A DNA stretch of 64,000 nucleotides from Streptomyces sp. NRRL S-646. GTDB taxonomy: Bacteria; Actinomycetota; Actinomycetes; Streptomycetales; Streptomycetaceae. Position numbers and translations under genes: made by a program. The stretch covers positions 434,001-498,000 of the forward strand of contig NZ_JODC01000011.1 in assembly GCF_000720765.1 (NCBI RefSeq). The letters are read 5' to 3'. How positions within the stretch are numbered: position 1 is the stretch's first letter; each line of letters starts with the position of its first letter. Below the pieces are notes generated by a model that did no database searches, was not told the origin of the DNA, and saw nothing but the letters and a program-made list of their open reading frames with translations. Positions 29,267 to 58,684 of the stretch are shown piece by piece.

Positions 29267-29665
29267 TCAGTAGTTGCCGAGCATGCCTGGGGAGTCGATG
29301 TCGACGGTGAGGATGCCGGGCGGGTAGTCGCTGTCCCGGCCGGTCAGGATGATCGACATACCGCCGGACTCGTGGTGCGGAGTGGCGACGTAGAGCGCGT
29401 GACAGATGTCGGGACCGCCCCACCCGTCCCGGATCATCCCGCCGACCGTGGCCGCCGCAGTCTGGCCGAGCGGGTCGATCATGACCCCGGGGAGTGCGAG
29501 AACGTCGCTCGCCACCCCTTTCTCGGTCGACTCCGCGTACATCAGACACAGTGCCGGGATGTGCAGCCAGTCCCCCGGCGTGTGGGCGACGTTGTCGGCG
29601 AGGTGGTGCAGAGCGCGGTGCCCCTGGGACAGGGCGACAACCGCGCTCGTGTCGAGAATGATCAC
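29267..29665 (-). CDS. PIN-domain protein, VapC-like toxin
   Basis: A 132-residue PIN-type protein. MIILDTSAVVAL has the first acidic residue; a Glu in MYAES and an Asp in GPDICHALYVA would complete a metal site. VapC toxins are Mg-dependent RNases. The spacing of the acidic residues is looser than in classical VapC, so activity is uncertain. It overlaps the upstream small gene by 4 bp (ATGA), the usual toxin-antitoxin arrangement. Confidence 0.72.
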   Translation of the reverse strand: MIILDTSAVVALSQGHRALHHLADNVAHTPGDWLHIPALCLMYAESTEKGVASDVLALPGVMIDPLGQTAAATVGGMIRDGWGGPDICHALYVATPHHESGGMSIILTGRDSDYPPGILTVDIDSPGMLGNY

Positions 29666-29949
29666 GCGGCCCCGCCCCGCAGGCCGTGCATCTTCTCGGC
29701 AGCCATCGCATAGATGTTGGCCAGGACATCCGGCCCTTGATCGAACTCCTCGTCGGTCAGCGTGCAGCCCATGCGCTCACGCAGCACCTTGCGGGTCGCG
29801 GCGACGCGCTCCGCGATCTGCTCCGCCGTGAGCTGCTCCGAGGCCAACTGCTCGACAAGCTGCCCCAAAGTCATCCCCCGCTCCTTGGCCACCTGGGCGA
29901 GATGGTCGCGGGCCTGCCGGGACACCTGAATGGTCGTGTGCTCTGCCAT
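29662..29949 (-). CDS. Antitoxin-like protein paired with the PIN protein
   Basis: A 95-residue protein with an N-terminal ribbon-helix-helix-like segment (TTIQVSRQARDHLAQVAKERGMTLGQLVEQLA) and an acidic helical C-terminus that would wrap the toxin. It overlaps the PIN gene by 4 bp. VapB-type antitoxins repress their own operon; the region upstream is a short 60-bp gap before the ABC exporter's 3' end. Confidence 0.75.
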   Translation of the reverse strand: MAEHTTIQVSRQARDHLAQVAKERGMTLGQLVEQLASEQLTAEQIAERVAATRKVLRERMGCTLTDEEFDQGPDVLANIYAMAAEKMHGLRGGAA

Positions 29950-30017: not shown

Positions 30018-31802
30018 CTACCACCTGAGGATCATCGTCTCGTCCTGCGTCGGCGGTACGTCGGCCACGGCGTCCGGCAGCGGCTCGGCGAGCCGGGCGT
30101 AGGCGCCCAAGCGGGCGAGGAGTTCCTGGTGGGTGCCCGCCTCCACCAGGCGGCCCCGGTCGACGACGAGGATCCGGTCCGCGTCCGGTGCGAGGCTCAG
30201 GTCGTGCGTGATCATGATCGTCGTACGGCCCGCCATCAGCTTGCGCAGCGGTGTCACCACCTGGCGGGCGGCCACCGCGTCCAGGCCCGCGGTCGGTTCG
30301 TCCAGGACCAGGACCGGTGCGGCGCGGAGCATCGCGCGGGCGATGGCGACGCGCTGCAGCTGGCCGCCGGAGAGGGCGGCCGTGCCGGGCGCGATGTGGG
30401 TGTCGTACCCCTCGGGCAGGGCGGTGATGAAGTTGTGCGCCGCCGCCTCGCGGGCCGCCTGCTCGATCTCCTCGTCGCTCGCGCCGGGCCGCCCGCAGGC
30501 GATGTTCTCCCGGATGGTGCCGCTGAGGACGAGGGTCTCCTGGGGCAGCAGCGCCACGTTCTCGCGCAGGAACTCCAGCGGTACGTCCGTGAGCGGGACG
30601 CCGTCCAGGGTGATCGTGCCCTGCGCGGGGTCGTAGAAGCGGGTGAGGAGCTTCGAGAGGGTCGACTTGCCTGCGCCGCTCGAACCGGTGACGATCACCA
30701 GCTCGCCGGGCCCCGCGGTGAAGGTCACGTCGCGCAGGGAGGCGCGGCGGGACTCGGGGTAGCGGAAGGACACGTCGTGGAAGGCGACCCAGCCGCGCAC
30801 CGGCCATTCGGCGACCGGTTGGGCGGGGTCGGCCACGGCGGGCTTCGCGTCCAGGATCTCGTTCAGGCGCTGGGCGCCCGCGGTGGCCGCGGTGAGGGTG
30901 AGGCCGAGCCGGCCGAGGTTGCGGACCGGCGGGTAGAGGTAGCCCAGGAAGGCGGCGAAGGCGAGGAGCTGGCCGAGGGTCATACGGCCGGCCGAGATCT
31001 CCCAGACGCCCAGGCCGATGACGGCCAGCACGCAGAGGGTCTCCACGACCTCGACGAACTGCTCGTACATCTCGCTGAGGCGGGCCCCGCGGACCGATGC
31101 CGTCATCCAGGCGCGCGCCTCGCGGTCGAGGCGCTGCTCCTCGTCCCGGCGGCGGTTGTAGGCCTGGGTGAGGACGATGTTGCCGAGCGACTCCTCCACG
31201 ACGGAGGTGATCGCGCCGTCGGCGACCCGTTCGTCCTGCGAGGCCGTCCTGATACGGCCGGAGAAGCGGCGGGCGGCGAGGAGGAAGAGGGGCGCGAGGA
31301 CGAACGTGGCCAGGGCCAGGTCCCAGCGCAGGTAGAGGGCGGCGCAGGAGTAGAAGACCGCCGAGAAGGCGGCCGACGCCGTGCCGACGACGCCCGAGAC
31401 GACCATCTGCTCGATGGCCTCGACGTCACCGGTCAGCCGCTCGACCAGGTCGCCCTGGCGGTGCTTCTGGAAGAAGTGCGGTGGCAGGCCCTGGACATGC
31501 CGGAAGACGCCCGCCCGTAGCCGCAGCACGAATCTCTCCGCGGTCCAGGTGGCAAGGGAGTTGCCGAGGTAGCCGACGAGCGCGCCGAGCGCGGCGACGG
31601 CCAGCCAGGCACCGGCCGGGCCCCAGAAGGCGGAGAGCGAGCCGGCCTTCAGGGCGTTGTCGGTGAGCTCCGCGAACAGCAGGATCGAGGCGGTCTCGGC
31701 GAGCGCGGACACCACCACGCACGCGACGATCGCCACGAGCCACTTGCGGTCGCCGCGGGTCAGCGGCCAGAAACGGCGGAAGGCCGCACGGACCTCGCTC
31801 AT
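30018..31802 (-). CDS. ABC exporter, fused permease and ATPase
   Basis: A 594-residue half transporter with an N-terminal six-span permease (about residues 20-310) and a C-terminal ATPase (about 340-575). The ATPase has Walker [11 protein letters not shown], signature [14 protein letters not shown], Walker [11 protein letters not shown] and the H-loop ITHDLS. It would work as a homodimer. It has no peptidase domain. It starts 113 bp downstream of the first of two small Lys/Pro-rich peptide genes on the same strand, with a long hairpin between them. The arrangement suggests export of these peptides or protection against them; the evidence is context only. Confidence 0.9.
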
Positions 31803-31849
31803 GGTCGACTCCCTTCGGGCACACGGCCCTTGATACGGCCATCGGACAT

Positions 31850-31911
31850 GGCCGAGGCGGGGCCCCGGTGCGAGCAGGATGCTCGCCGACCGGTGACCCC
31901 GCCTCGTGGCC
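31850..31911 (-). terminator. Long hairpin between peptide genes and ABC exporter
   Basis: The outer stem is GGCCGAGGCGGGG (31850-31862) with CCCCGCCTC-GT-GGCC (31897-31911; 2-base bulge). An inner stem GCGAGCA / TGCTCGC lies at 31870-31886. Placed between the peptides and the exporter, it could partly end transcription so that peptides are made in excess. Confidence 0.6.
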
Positions 31912-31915
31912 TGGC

Positions 31916-32044
31916 TCAGCCCTGGTGGCCGACGGGGCGGCGCTTCGGGGCCGGGGCGGGCTTCTTCGGCGCCTTCTTGCGGGGGGCCGGGGCACCCTTC
32001 TTGCAGTCGTTCTTCTTCACCGGGGCAATCTTGTGGAAGCTCAT
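31916..32044 (-). CDS. Lys/Pro/Ala-rich small peptide 1 (42 residues)
   Basis: ATG 32044 to TGA 31916. The peptide starts MSFHKIAPVKKND, has one Cys in KNDCKK, a middle made of A-P-x-K/R repeats (APAPRKKAPKKPAPAPKRR) and ends PVGHQG. It shares the first 11 residues and the PVGH tail with peptide 2, so they are paralogues. An AGAAAGG ribosome site lies upstream. Conserved ends around a variable middle recall a leader/core design of a ribosomal peptide, but the high Lys/Pro content also recalls histone H1-like tails. No modifying enzyme is adjacent. Confidence 0.7.
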   Translation of the reverse strand: MSFHKIAPVKKNDCKKGAPAPRKKAPKKPAPAPKRRPVGHQG

Positions 32045-32099
32045 GGGATTCTGCCTTTCTGGCTGTGAATTGCTTTGATTTACCGAGCTAAATTCTGTG

Positions 32100-32213
32100 T
32101 CAGCACTTGTGGCCGACGGGGCGCTTCGGCGCGGGCTTCTTCGGGGCCTTCTTCTTGGGGGCCGGCGCGGGCTTGTGGGCCTTCTTGACCGGGGCGATCT
32201 TATGGAAGCTCAT
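32100..32213 (-). CDS. Lys/Pro/Ala-rich small peptide 2 (37 residues)
   Basis: ATG 32213 follows GAAGGAGAACATA, a strong ribosome site, and the frame ends at TGA 32100. The peptide starts MSFHKIAPVKKAHK, continues with APAPKKKAPKKPAPK and ends RPVGHKC, with a C-terminal Cys. Peptide 1 follows after 55 bp, then the ABC exporter. The upstream region (32214-32370) is markedly AT-rich for this genome, which fits a regulated or acquired promoter. Confidence 0.7.
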   Translation of the reverse strand: MSFHKIAPVKKAHKPAPAPKKKAPKKPAPKRPVGHKC

Positions 32214-32370
32214 TATGTTCTCCTTCGTTTCGCGTCGTTCGCTTTCGACATGGAAAACATTACGGCATTCCCGAAGCAGGAAAAGTCCAATACCGCTTAG
32301 AGGTTCCTGAGTTGATGCTGTGAGAGATTCTTATGTAAATTGCGGAACCGAATCCGCACTCACACAGCTT

Positions 32371-57124: not shown

Positions 57125-58684
57125 ATGGAACGTCGTACGTTCATGGGAGGCGGCGCGGCCGCACTGGCGGCGGTCGCCACGGCCGCGTGCAGGGGCGGGT
57201 CCGCCGACGCGGACGCCAGCACCTCGTCGTCGTCCTCGTCCTCCTCCGGTACGGCGATCAGGTCCCAGTCCGCCGCGGCAGCCCCCGCGAACTGGACCGC
57301 GCTCTCCCGCGACCTCGACGGCGCCCTGATACGCCCGGGCGAGGCGACCTGGACCACGGCCCACCAGCTGTACAACACCCGCTTCGACGGCCTGAAGCCG
57401 GCGGCCGTGGCCTACGTCGCCCACGCCGACGACATACGCACGACCCTCGCCTACGCCCGCGCCCACAACATCAAGGTCGCGATCCGCAACGGCGGCCACT
57501 CCTACGCGGGATGGTCCTCCGGCAACGGCAAGCTGATCGTCGACGTCTCGAAGCTGAAGCAGATACGGGTGGGCGGCGGCCAGGCGGTGGTCGGCGCCGG
57601 CTCCAAGCTGATCGACGTCTACCGGGCGCTGACCGCGAAGGGCGTGACGATCCCCGCGGGCTCCTGCCCCTCGGTCGGTGTCTCGGGCCTGGTCCTGGGC
57701 GGCGGCCACGGCGTGGTCTCCCGGGCGTACGGCCTCACTTGCGACAGCCTCACCCAGGCAACCCTGATCACGGCCGACGGCAAGCAGCTCGTGGCCAACG
57801 CGACCGAGAACAAGGACCTGTTCTGGGCCCTGCGCGGCGCGGGCAACGGCAACTTCGGCGTCGTGACGGAACTGCACTTCAAGACCCACCCGGCACCGCA
57901 GGCCGTCTCCGCGTATCTGACCTGGCCCTGGTCGAAGGCCGCCGCCGTGCTGAAGGCCTGGCAGGAGTGGGGCCCCGACCAGCCCGACGAGATCTGGTCC
58001 TCCTGCCACCTGGAGAACGGCGGCTCGCCCACCGTCTCGGTGGCGGCGTTCTCCATCGGTACATACGGAGAACTGCAGAACGCCCTCGACCGCCTGGTCT
58101 CCGCGGTCGGCTCACCGGCCCGCAGCGAAACGCTCAAGCGGCACACCTACGAGGGCGCGATGGAGGCATACGCGGGCTGCTCGTCCTTCCGCACCGAGGC
58201 CCAGTGCCACCTCCCCGGCTCCACCCCGAACCGCAACCCGCAGGGCGCCCTGGGCCGGGAGACCTACACGGCCCGCTCGGACTTCTTCGACCGGTCGATC
58301 TCCTCGGCGGGCATCCAGACCCTGCTGCGGAACGTCAGCTCGGTCCCGGGCGGCGCGGGCAGCATCGCGCTGACGGCCCTGGGCGGCGCGGTCAACCGCG
58401 TCTCCCCCACCGCCACGGCCTTCGTCCACCGCCGCTCCCGGATGCTGGCCCAGTACCTGGCGTCCTGGCGCGCGGGCACCACAGGCTCAGCAGCCCAGAC
58501 CTGGCTGACCAACACCCACAAGGCAATGCGCCCGTACGCCTCGGGAGCGGCCTACCAGAACTACACGGACCCGACGCTGACGGACTGGCGGAAGGCGTAC
58601 TACGGGGATGCGGCGACCCGCCTGTCCCAGGTGAAGAACCAGTACGACCCGAACCGCTTCTTCACGTACCCGCAGGCGCTGTAG
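57125..58684 (+). CDS. Tat-exported BBE-type FAD oxidoreductase
   Basis: A 519-residue flavoprotein. RRTFMGGGAAALAAVATAAC is a twin-arginine signal ending in a Cys; Ser-rich sequence follows. The FAD domain has RNGGHSYAG with the His that carries FAD and GSCPSVGVSGLVLGGGHG with the Cys that can form a second covalent link, so FAD is probably bicovalent. The C-terminal BBE segment ends YDPNRFFTYPQAL. Relatives oxidise sugars or alkaloid-like substrates with O2. The ATG at 57125 follows GGAGGC. Divergent from pstS. Confidence 0.88.
   Translation: MERRTFMGGGAAALAAVATAACRGGSADADASTSSSSSSSSGTAIRSQSAAAAPANWTALSRDLDGALIRPGEATWTTAHQLYNTRFDGLKPAAVAYVAHADDIRTTLAYARAHNIKVAIRNGGHSYAGWSSGNGKLIVDVSKLKQIRVGGGQAVVGAGSKLIDVYRALTAKGVTIPAGSCPSVGVSGLVLGGGHGVVSRAYGLTCDSLTQATLITADGKQLVANATENKDLFWALRGAGNGNFGVVTELHFKTHPAPQAVSAYLTWPWSKAAAVLKAWQEWGPDQPDEIWSSCHLENGGSPTVSVAAFSIGTYGELQNALDRLVSAVGSPARSETLKRHTYEGAMEAYAGCSSFRTEAQCHLPGSTPNRNPQGALGRETYTARSDFFDRSISSAGIQTLLRNVSSVPGGAGSIALTALGGAVNRVSPTATAFVHRRSRMLAQYLASWRAGTTGSAAQTWLTNTHKAMRPYASGAAYQNYTDPTLTDWRKAYYGDAATRLSQVKNQYDPNRFFTYPQAL

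Follow-up and report, generated by a model that had tools for sequence, protein, structure and literature searches.

Conserved units of micropeptide genes and a B-type ABC exporter gene in Streptomyces and other Actinomycetota suggest a route for secreting short charged peptides

We analysed a 64,000-nucleotide (nt) stretch of DNA from Streptomyces sp. NRRL S-646 (contig NZ_JODC01000011.1, positions 434,001 to 498,000; hereafter the window). It is part of a 10.7-Mb genome, and the closest named genome is that of Streptomyces guryensis, whose exporter is 98% identical (records of the own genome were possibly excluded). We found that a conserved promoter-like block, two paralogous micropeptide genes rich in Lys, Pro and Ala, a hairpin and the gene of an MsbA-like ATP-binding cassette (ABC) exporter form a single unit on the minus strand (Table 1). 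The original prediction, made from these letters alone, had put two paralogous peptides before an ABC exporter, and their positions and strand are as it claimed. The family to which this locus belongs is far larger and more diverse. Export of the peptide by the exporter is likely. We also consider it reasonably probable, with a little more caution, that the peptide is the substrate of the exporter, with its N-terminus as address and its tail as a secreted, usually basic chain, in a two-part secretion unit.

The linkage between peptide and exporter supports this reading. A close exporter is encoded at 79 named loci, and every one of the 77 for which enough upstream DNA exists has one to five peptides: one copy in 32 loci, two in 31, three in 7, four in 4 and five in 3 (the copy count omits L178 and L206, at contig ends). 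The bacteriocin pair that the original prediction offered is thus one state among several and not the rule. In 150 congeneric genomes, 36 of 36 matches to a peptide profile (E ≤ 1e-4; at least 21 genomes) lay within about 1.03 kb of a family exporter when the coordinates of both were compared by eye. Homologues found mostly away from the exporter had been named as what would speak against the proposal; every match adjoined one. Genome counts from genome searches, here and below, are lower bounds, with a limited number of candidates (for example 8) scored per genome. By a strict rule (an ATG open reading frame (ORF) of 30-70 amino acids (aa) led by a Shine-Dalgarno (SD) sequence, entropy ≤3.3 bits, ≤600 nt upstream), 65 of 84 exporter loci, which are related to one another and hence not independent, had an upstream micro-ORF, compared with 1 of 127 control genes. 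Up to 14 duplicate or truncated loci were excluded from this control, as from the exporter tree and the start-pattern count below. In the window's own genome both family exporters have a micropeptide, and none of the eight other B-type exporters has one by the strict rule. The second unit of this genome (type 2; L085, C11:231534-233270) has MSLKKLAPLPPKSKNKQLPPPPPPKPKKKHPKPPVPKPIPGDDN before an exporter with 70% identity.

Two loci illustrate variation within the unit. At L209, a peptide copy with a divergent tail, MSFHKIVPVKKAAKPAPAPSAARSATSNRPARPR, lies 962 nt upstream of the exporter; it is apparently decaying, which fits birth and death of tandem copies. At L103 (G141:C2:4694455-4696234) the exporter is read in two overlapping frames despite three upstream peptide genes, reflecting either a sequencing error or a pseudogene.

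The family extends well beyond peptides of the window's kind (type 1). Exporters of about 43-77% identity occur in Streptomycetaceae, in an order that we designate f17, in Rubrobacteraceae and in two more family-level groups of the phylum. Most of these have an upstream micro-ORF of other kinds, in which a short, often common start is followed by a low-complexity tail that differs greatly (Lys-Pro, poly-Pro/Lys, His-Gly-Asp, Trp/Cys/Arg or poly-Arg; Table 1). Inspection by eye, after the fact, found a micropeptide upstream in 81 of the 84 loci. In order f17 a peptide was seen by eye in 30 of 30 loci, with an exporter match in at least 31 of 150 genomes, and in the Rubrobacteraceae-type clade in 10 of 14 genomes. 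An exporter identical to a Rubrobacter radiotolerans protein (P0124) is preceded by two tandem copies of its micropeptide gene. The exporter itself was matched at E ≤ 1e-100 in at least 41 of the 150 congeneric genomes, at least 13 of which hold two or more distinct ones, and was found in at least 20 of 61 genomes and in 9 of 17 genera of the family. The class gave at least 7 of 296 genomes at E ≤ 1e-145, and phylum-level counts were at least 11 of 246 and at least 20 of 396, with the genomes counted above included. The type-4 peptide had only three relatives in a large protein set.

The peptides are more constrained at their start than in their tail. The 77 named loci contain 146 peptide ORFs, 145 of type 1 and one of another type (L201, 67% identity). 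The 145 type-1 peptides range from 34 to 49 aa and have a median charge of +12; 142 begin with MSF, 143 have RP[VI] and a few residues at the end, and Lys, Pro and Ala together make up a median fraction of 0.60. We compared 85 pairs of loci, picked on exporter identity (≥90%), for pN/pS (the ratio of non-synonymous to synonymous polymorphism), which came to 0.41 over the whole last-copy peptide (0.23 in the first 11 codons and 0.48 in the remainder) and to 0.20 for the exporter. These values point to purifying selection on the peptide, strongest at the N-terminus. An earlier pN/pS of 0.25 came from pairs selected by peptide identity; it was biased and was dropped in favour of the pairs chosen by exporter.

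We recognized a common start, M-x(1,2)-hydrophobic-x-x-hydrophobic-x-P. Among 118 ORFs picked automatically upstream of exporters 61 have it, versus 32 of 2181 control ORFs, a comparison that is descriptive in that the pattern was derived from these same peptides. Of 93 peptides chosen by hand outside type 1, 58 also have this start; the set is made up of loci with a hand-chosen peptide, so its figures give no miss rate. Within this set, net charge was +5 or higher in 78 peptides. In a FastTree phylogeny of 117 exporters, 16 peptide labels needed 15 changes, the minimum, compared with an average of 79 for shuffled labels; because we set the labels ourselves, partly along taxa, the tree shows consistency more than independent proof. 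One exporter clade unites Streptomyces peptides with MAIFxxLxPA starts and His/Gly/Asp tails and Rubrobacteraceae-type peptides with MAxFSxxxPA-like starts and poly-Arg tails. This clade is the telling case: the start has been retained and the tail swapped, which fits an export address with free cargo.

The derivation of the start pattern and the origin of the labels weigh against the substrate reading, and so do several gaps in the family. Some peptides of the order-f17 and MxIFG groups lack the pattern. Tails of the His/Gly/Asp kind have no net basic character, with charges down to -8, and 'polycation' fails to cover the family. Three of the 84 loci (L096, with a truncated exporter, L110 and L122) have no clear peptide, none was found in the Rubrobacteraceae-type genomes G760, G884 and G961, and that of G940 is doubtful. 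Furthermore, exporters at about 40-42% identity (L280-L282) have no acceptable peptide. Upstream of the exporters of L110 and L122 (about 50% identity) we observed a common non-basic ORF of 31-32 aa, MV[IN]PFLFPSGFGG..., at about 600 nt.

The replaced tails also bear on the possibility that the peptide stays inside the cell, where it would be a small partner that regulates or plugs the exporter, or would bind nucleic acids or metals, with the exporter carrying another substrate. Basic tails would bind nucleic acids and His-rich tails metals, and linkage to the exporter is equally compatible with a regulator. However, a regulator would be expected to keep its whole sequence, whereas here the tail is replaced between clades and the start is kept, and the copy number varies from one to five. 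We regard an intracellular partner as unlikely.

We next consider the signals that flank the peptide genes. The block TARTGTTTTCCRTGTC occurs once in the window and once in the own 10.7-Mb genome even when one mismatch is allowed. It lies ahead of the first peptide copy in 73 of 77 named loci and ahead of none of 69 later copies, with 73 occurrences in total in 2.1 Mb of strand, and it also precedes one relative outside type 1 (L106). This distribution suggests that the block is the promoter. A promoter of the extracytoplasmic function (ECF) or sigma-E type, GGAA[CTA]-N16-18-GTC, was tried and dropped in favour of TARTGTTTTCCRTGTC; of 146 copies it fitted 11, every one of them belonging to the 77 first copies. 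Downstream, the window's hairpin, folded as 31914-31848, reached -53.5 kcal/mol (z -7.05; none of 200 shuffles was equal). Of 76 named loci, 72 have the stem GAGGCGGG..CCCGCCTC after the last peptide, at a spacing of 10-13 nt in 65 of them, and none of 69 gaps between peptide copies contains it (L200, whose exporter start is unresolved, is omitted). A variant is visible in three of the four misses, and the remaining one, L201, is of another type and has its own hairpin. The strict stem occurs 72 times on the plus strand of 1.05 Mb, and 71 loci have it in the gap between peptide and exporter. The hairpin may be a partial terminator or a processing site, with a polycistronic peptide message and partial read-through into the exporter gene.

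This arrangement could instead serve attenuation or drug sensing, in which the peptides would be regulatory leaders and ribosomes that stall on Lys/Pro, Arg, His or Trp runs would switch the hairpin and thereby exporter transcription. Amino-acid attenuation leaders have a small ORF with residue runs, then a hairpin, then the gene, and the unit has this classical layout, with a hairpin about 10 nt past the stop; outside type 1, too, the 65 nt past the peptide stop fold at -25 kcal/mol or below in 85 of 93 loci versus 432 of 930 random windows. Attenuation of the exporter was nevertheless unsupported when we looked for an alternative helix for the 5' arm of the hairpin: the longest averaged 7.27 bp in 71 loci (within about 150 nt upstream) versus 7.12 bp in mononucleotide shuffles, that is, no mutually exclusive pairing beyond chance. 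Up to five tandem copies share a lone hairpin after the last, and constraint acts at the protein level at both ends of the peptide. A leader function is thus improbable, slightly more so than an intracellular one.

The predicted properties of the exporter agree with a role in peptide transport. Pfam searches gave PF00664 and PF00005, plus weak generic ATPase matches; its PADLOC matches likewise seem to be of the generic ATPase kind. A structure predicted without relatives was unusable (predicted local distance difference test score, pLDDT, 41.4) and was repeated with 59 sequences, and the resulting AlphaFold2 model (pLDDT 89.2, predicted template modelling score 0.80) showed six long helices and one nucleotide-binding domain. 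The nearest solved folds include MsbA, TmrAB and TM287/288, and TmrAB is described in the fold listing as a homologue of the peptide transporter TAP. Together, the two domains and the MsbA-like modelled fold place the protein among the B-type (type IV) ABC exporters. It fell below the curated cut-off of all NCBIfam families among the matches listed (the best 25 of 195), and TIGR01193 gave 266 bits against a cut-off of 524. A larger exporter set comprised 3362 proteins at E ≤ 1e-100 out of 7999 scored. A 935-aa relative of the Rubrobacter exporter (P0241) is annotated with PF00069 and PF07714 as well, which we take to be a protein kinase.

Neither a peptidase nor a modification enzyme was found with the unit. 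Pfam detected no N-terminal C39-type peptidase domain in the exporter, whose first helix begins at residue 2, and no leader peptidase is encoded with the peptide, judging by the exporter domains, the genes shared between types and the immediate neighbours, partly checked against Pfam. Within about 3 kb, 38 longer loci had no third gene common to several types. Two gene clusters spanned several types, both antisense inside the exporter, and the others were confined, or nearly so, to one type. With the 77 of 77 loci above, this strongly supports a peptide with a dedicated exporter and without an adjacent modification enzyme or peptidase. The same result bears on a ribosomally synthesized and post-translationally modified peptide (RiPP) with enzymes encoded at a distant place in the genome, a reading that would suit the Trp/Cys/Arg type of order f17 best. 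A short N-terminus with a variable tail does resemble leader and core, and 48 of the 93 peptides outside type 1 have at least one Cys. However, no shared enzyme gene accompanies the types, and only 25 of 145 type-1 peptides, consisting mainly of Lys, Pro and Ala, contain Cys. We rate a RiPP as still less probable. The one Cys per peptide that was originally noted is present in both window peptides and is not a trait of the family; of the overall interpretation, the peptide with a dedicated exporter survived, and the bacteriocin pair and a conserved Cys did not.

The micropeptide ORFs have the features of genes. Across the 146 ORFs the median GC content at third codon positions was 0.95, Lys was encoded by AAG and AAA in a ratio of 1420:1, and an SD-like sequence preceded 145. 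A search of 5.8 billion proteins gave 122 relatives of peptide 2 at E ≤ 1; among the 120 matches listed, all those named by their source are called hypothetical or uncharacterized proteins. Both window peptides lacked a Pfam or NCBIfam match at E ≤ 0.1; PADLOC gave no match to the peptides at E ≤ 0.001, and their PHROGs matches did not rise above chance (best E 0.058). Codon use and selection are the evidence that argues for translation. Low entropy by itself was rejected as a criterion: under loose rules that admit GTG starts, a weak SD, antisense frames and nested starts, 801 of the 2181 control ORFs were low in entropy, and therefore only the strict rule and conservation count as evidence. 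Chance basic, low-complexity frames of GC-rich DNA, which those 801 control ORFs might seem to favour, are a very improbable source of the peptides given the strict control, the codon bias and SD sequences, pN/pS below 1 and the 122 homologues.

Table 1. Features of the unit in the window and other peptide kinds of the family
Feature	Position	Strand	Details
Promoter-like region	32247..32285	-	conserved block TAATGTTTTCCATGTC at 32262-32247; T-rich -35-like box at 32285-32280, about 17 nt upstream
Micropeptide 1, 37 aa	32100..32213	-	MSFHKIAPVKKAHKPAPAPKKKAPKKPAPKRPVGHKC (MSFHKIAPVKK...KRPVGHKC); AAGGAG upstream
Micropeptide 2, 42 aa	31916..32044	-	MSFHKIAPVKKNDCKKGAPAPRKKAPKKPAPAPKRRPVGHQG (MSFHKIAPVKK...KRRPVGHQG); weaker SD GAAAGG upstream
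Strong hairpin without U tract	31853..31906	-	starts about 10 nt past the last peptide stop
B-type ABC half-exporter, 594 aa	30018..31802	-	PF00664 and PF00005; six transmembrane helices and a nucleotide-binding domain, without peptidase domain
Type 2 peptide	C11:231534 (window's own genome)		start MSLKKLAPLPPKSKNKQLPPPPPPKPKKK...
Further peptide kind			start MSFRKVFPRRRRDGW...
Further peptide kind			MAIFSSLLPAK...HGHRHGHRH...
Further peptide kind			start MNIFGPFGRRRGGF...
Further peptide kind			MSFAKITLAKK...HHKKHHH...
Order f17 kind			MTFTKLFPTGRDWGWGWGGGCGW...WWW

The type-1 unit occupies a fixed chromosomal place, with a 5'-nucleotidase gene nearby in 69 of 79 loci and a GNAT gene in 71 of 79 (some loci are short). 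Among the type-1 loci are L131, L147 and L186, from S. guryensis, S. canus and S. griseoviridis. Beside it in the window, at 29267-29949 on the minus strand, are two overlapping small ORFs of 132 and 95 aa, which we assume to resemble a PIN-type toxin with a ribbon-helix-helix antitoxin. The 132-aa ORF matched no Pfam family, and the 95-aa ORF matched MatP_C at 22.8 bits, under the cut-off of 24. They recur in only 9 and 10 of the 79 type-1-type loci, respectively, and this pair therefore lies outside the unit. Elsewhere in the window, ARAGORN located a selenocysteine tRNA gene (anticodon tca) at 57331-57431 on the minus strand, and Rfam gave no match in the window at the gathering score.

Based on these data we propose the following mechanism for peptide export. 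A single promoter would drive one to five micropeptide genes, and the hairpin after the last of them would pass part of the transcripts into the exporter gene, giving much peptide and little pump. The exporter would act as a homodimeric B-type ABC pump without a peptidase; homodimerization is presumed. It would read the short N-terminal part of the peptide (MSFHKIAPVKK in the window) as an address and move the peptide outward, probably uncleaved. Outside the cell, the low-complexity tail would be the working part, a disordered and usually strongly basic chain that binds anionic surfaces. Taking the peptide as the substrate accounts for the linkage, the copy number, the hairpin, the gradient of constraint and the replacement of tails. 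The function of the tail is the weakest step: an antimicrobial or envelope role is the leading but tentative suggestion, and metal binding is possible for the His types.

Several known systems resemble the unit in part. Leaderless bacteriocins of the aureocin A53/lacticin Q type are likewise small, often basic peptides with no leader peptidase and a transporter alongside. PMC11580447, on leaderless bacteriocins in Actinomycetota, describes sometimes several core peptides per operon, and gives aureocin A53 as 51 residues with five Trp. By comparison, type-1 peptides have 34-49 residues, mainly Lys, Pro and Ala, and a sequence relation to the described families is lacking for both window peptides. 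We do not file the unit as a leaderless bacteriocin, because this sequence test failed and antibacterial activity is here a prediction. In double-glycine bacteriocins a peptide accompanies a peptidase-containing B-type ABC exporter; here there is no peptidase domain, TIGR01193 stays under its cut-off and the type-1 peptides have no common double-Gly site. Phenol-soluble modulins are short amphipathic helices exported without leader cleavage by the dedicated multi-protein ABC exporter Pmt. The unit shares with them short peptides and a dedicated ABC exporter, and differs in its low-complexity tails and single half-exporter. Apidaecin and Bac7 are basic, proline-rich, short antimicrobial peptides of animals, which types 1 and 2 resemble in composition; other types here are without Pro. 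Attenuation leaders differ from the unit in its tandem copies, its constrained termini and its lack of an alternative helix. By analogy, the unit would work as leaderless bacteriocins or phenol-soluble modulins do with their pumps, and it is possibly a class of its own. No description of a micropeptide-exporter unit was found in the open-access literature, nor by the letters of the peptides.

Together, these results suggest that tiny, mostly strongly basic, repetitive peptides with their own pump represent an unrecognized route for secreting short charged peptides. The genes are easily missed, being of about 30-70 codons, low in complexity and without modification enzymes. If the peptides are exported, genera long mined for antibiotics would hold a widespread source of short basic peptides that has had no name so far. 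The unit would also offer a minimal system, one short address and one pump, for studying how ABC exporters recognize peptides, and its natural set of tails, from poly-Arg to Lys-Pro to Trp-Arg, would make their use by bacteria testable. More speculatively, Actinomycetota might have a class of secretion that needs nothing more than an address of about 9-11 N-terminal residues to direct a dedicated ABC exporter, its cargo being a disordered polyelectrolyte that evolves freely (poly-Arg, Lys-Pro, His-Gly-Asp or Trp-Cys-Arg). If so, the address would be a natural export tag, and protamine-like or cell-penetrating-like chains would be a routine product of these bacteria.

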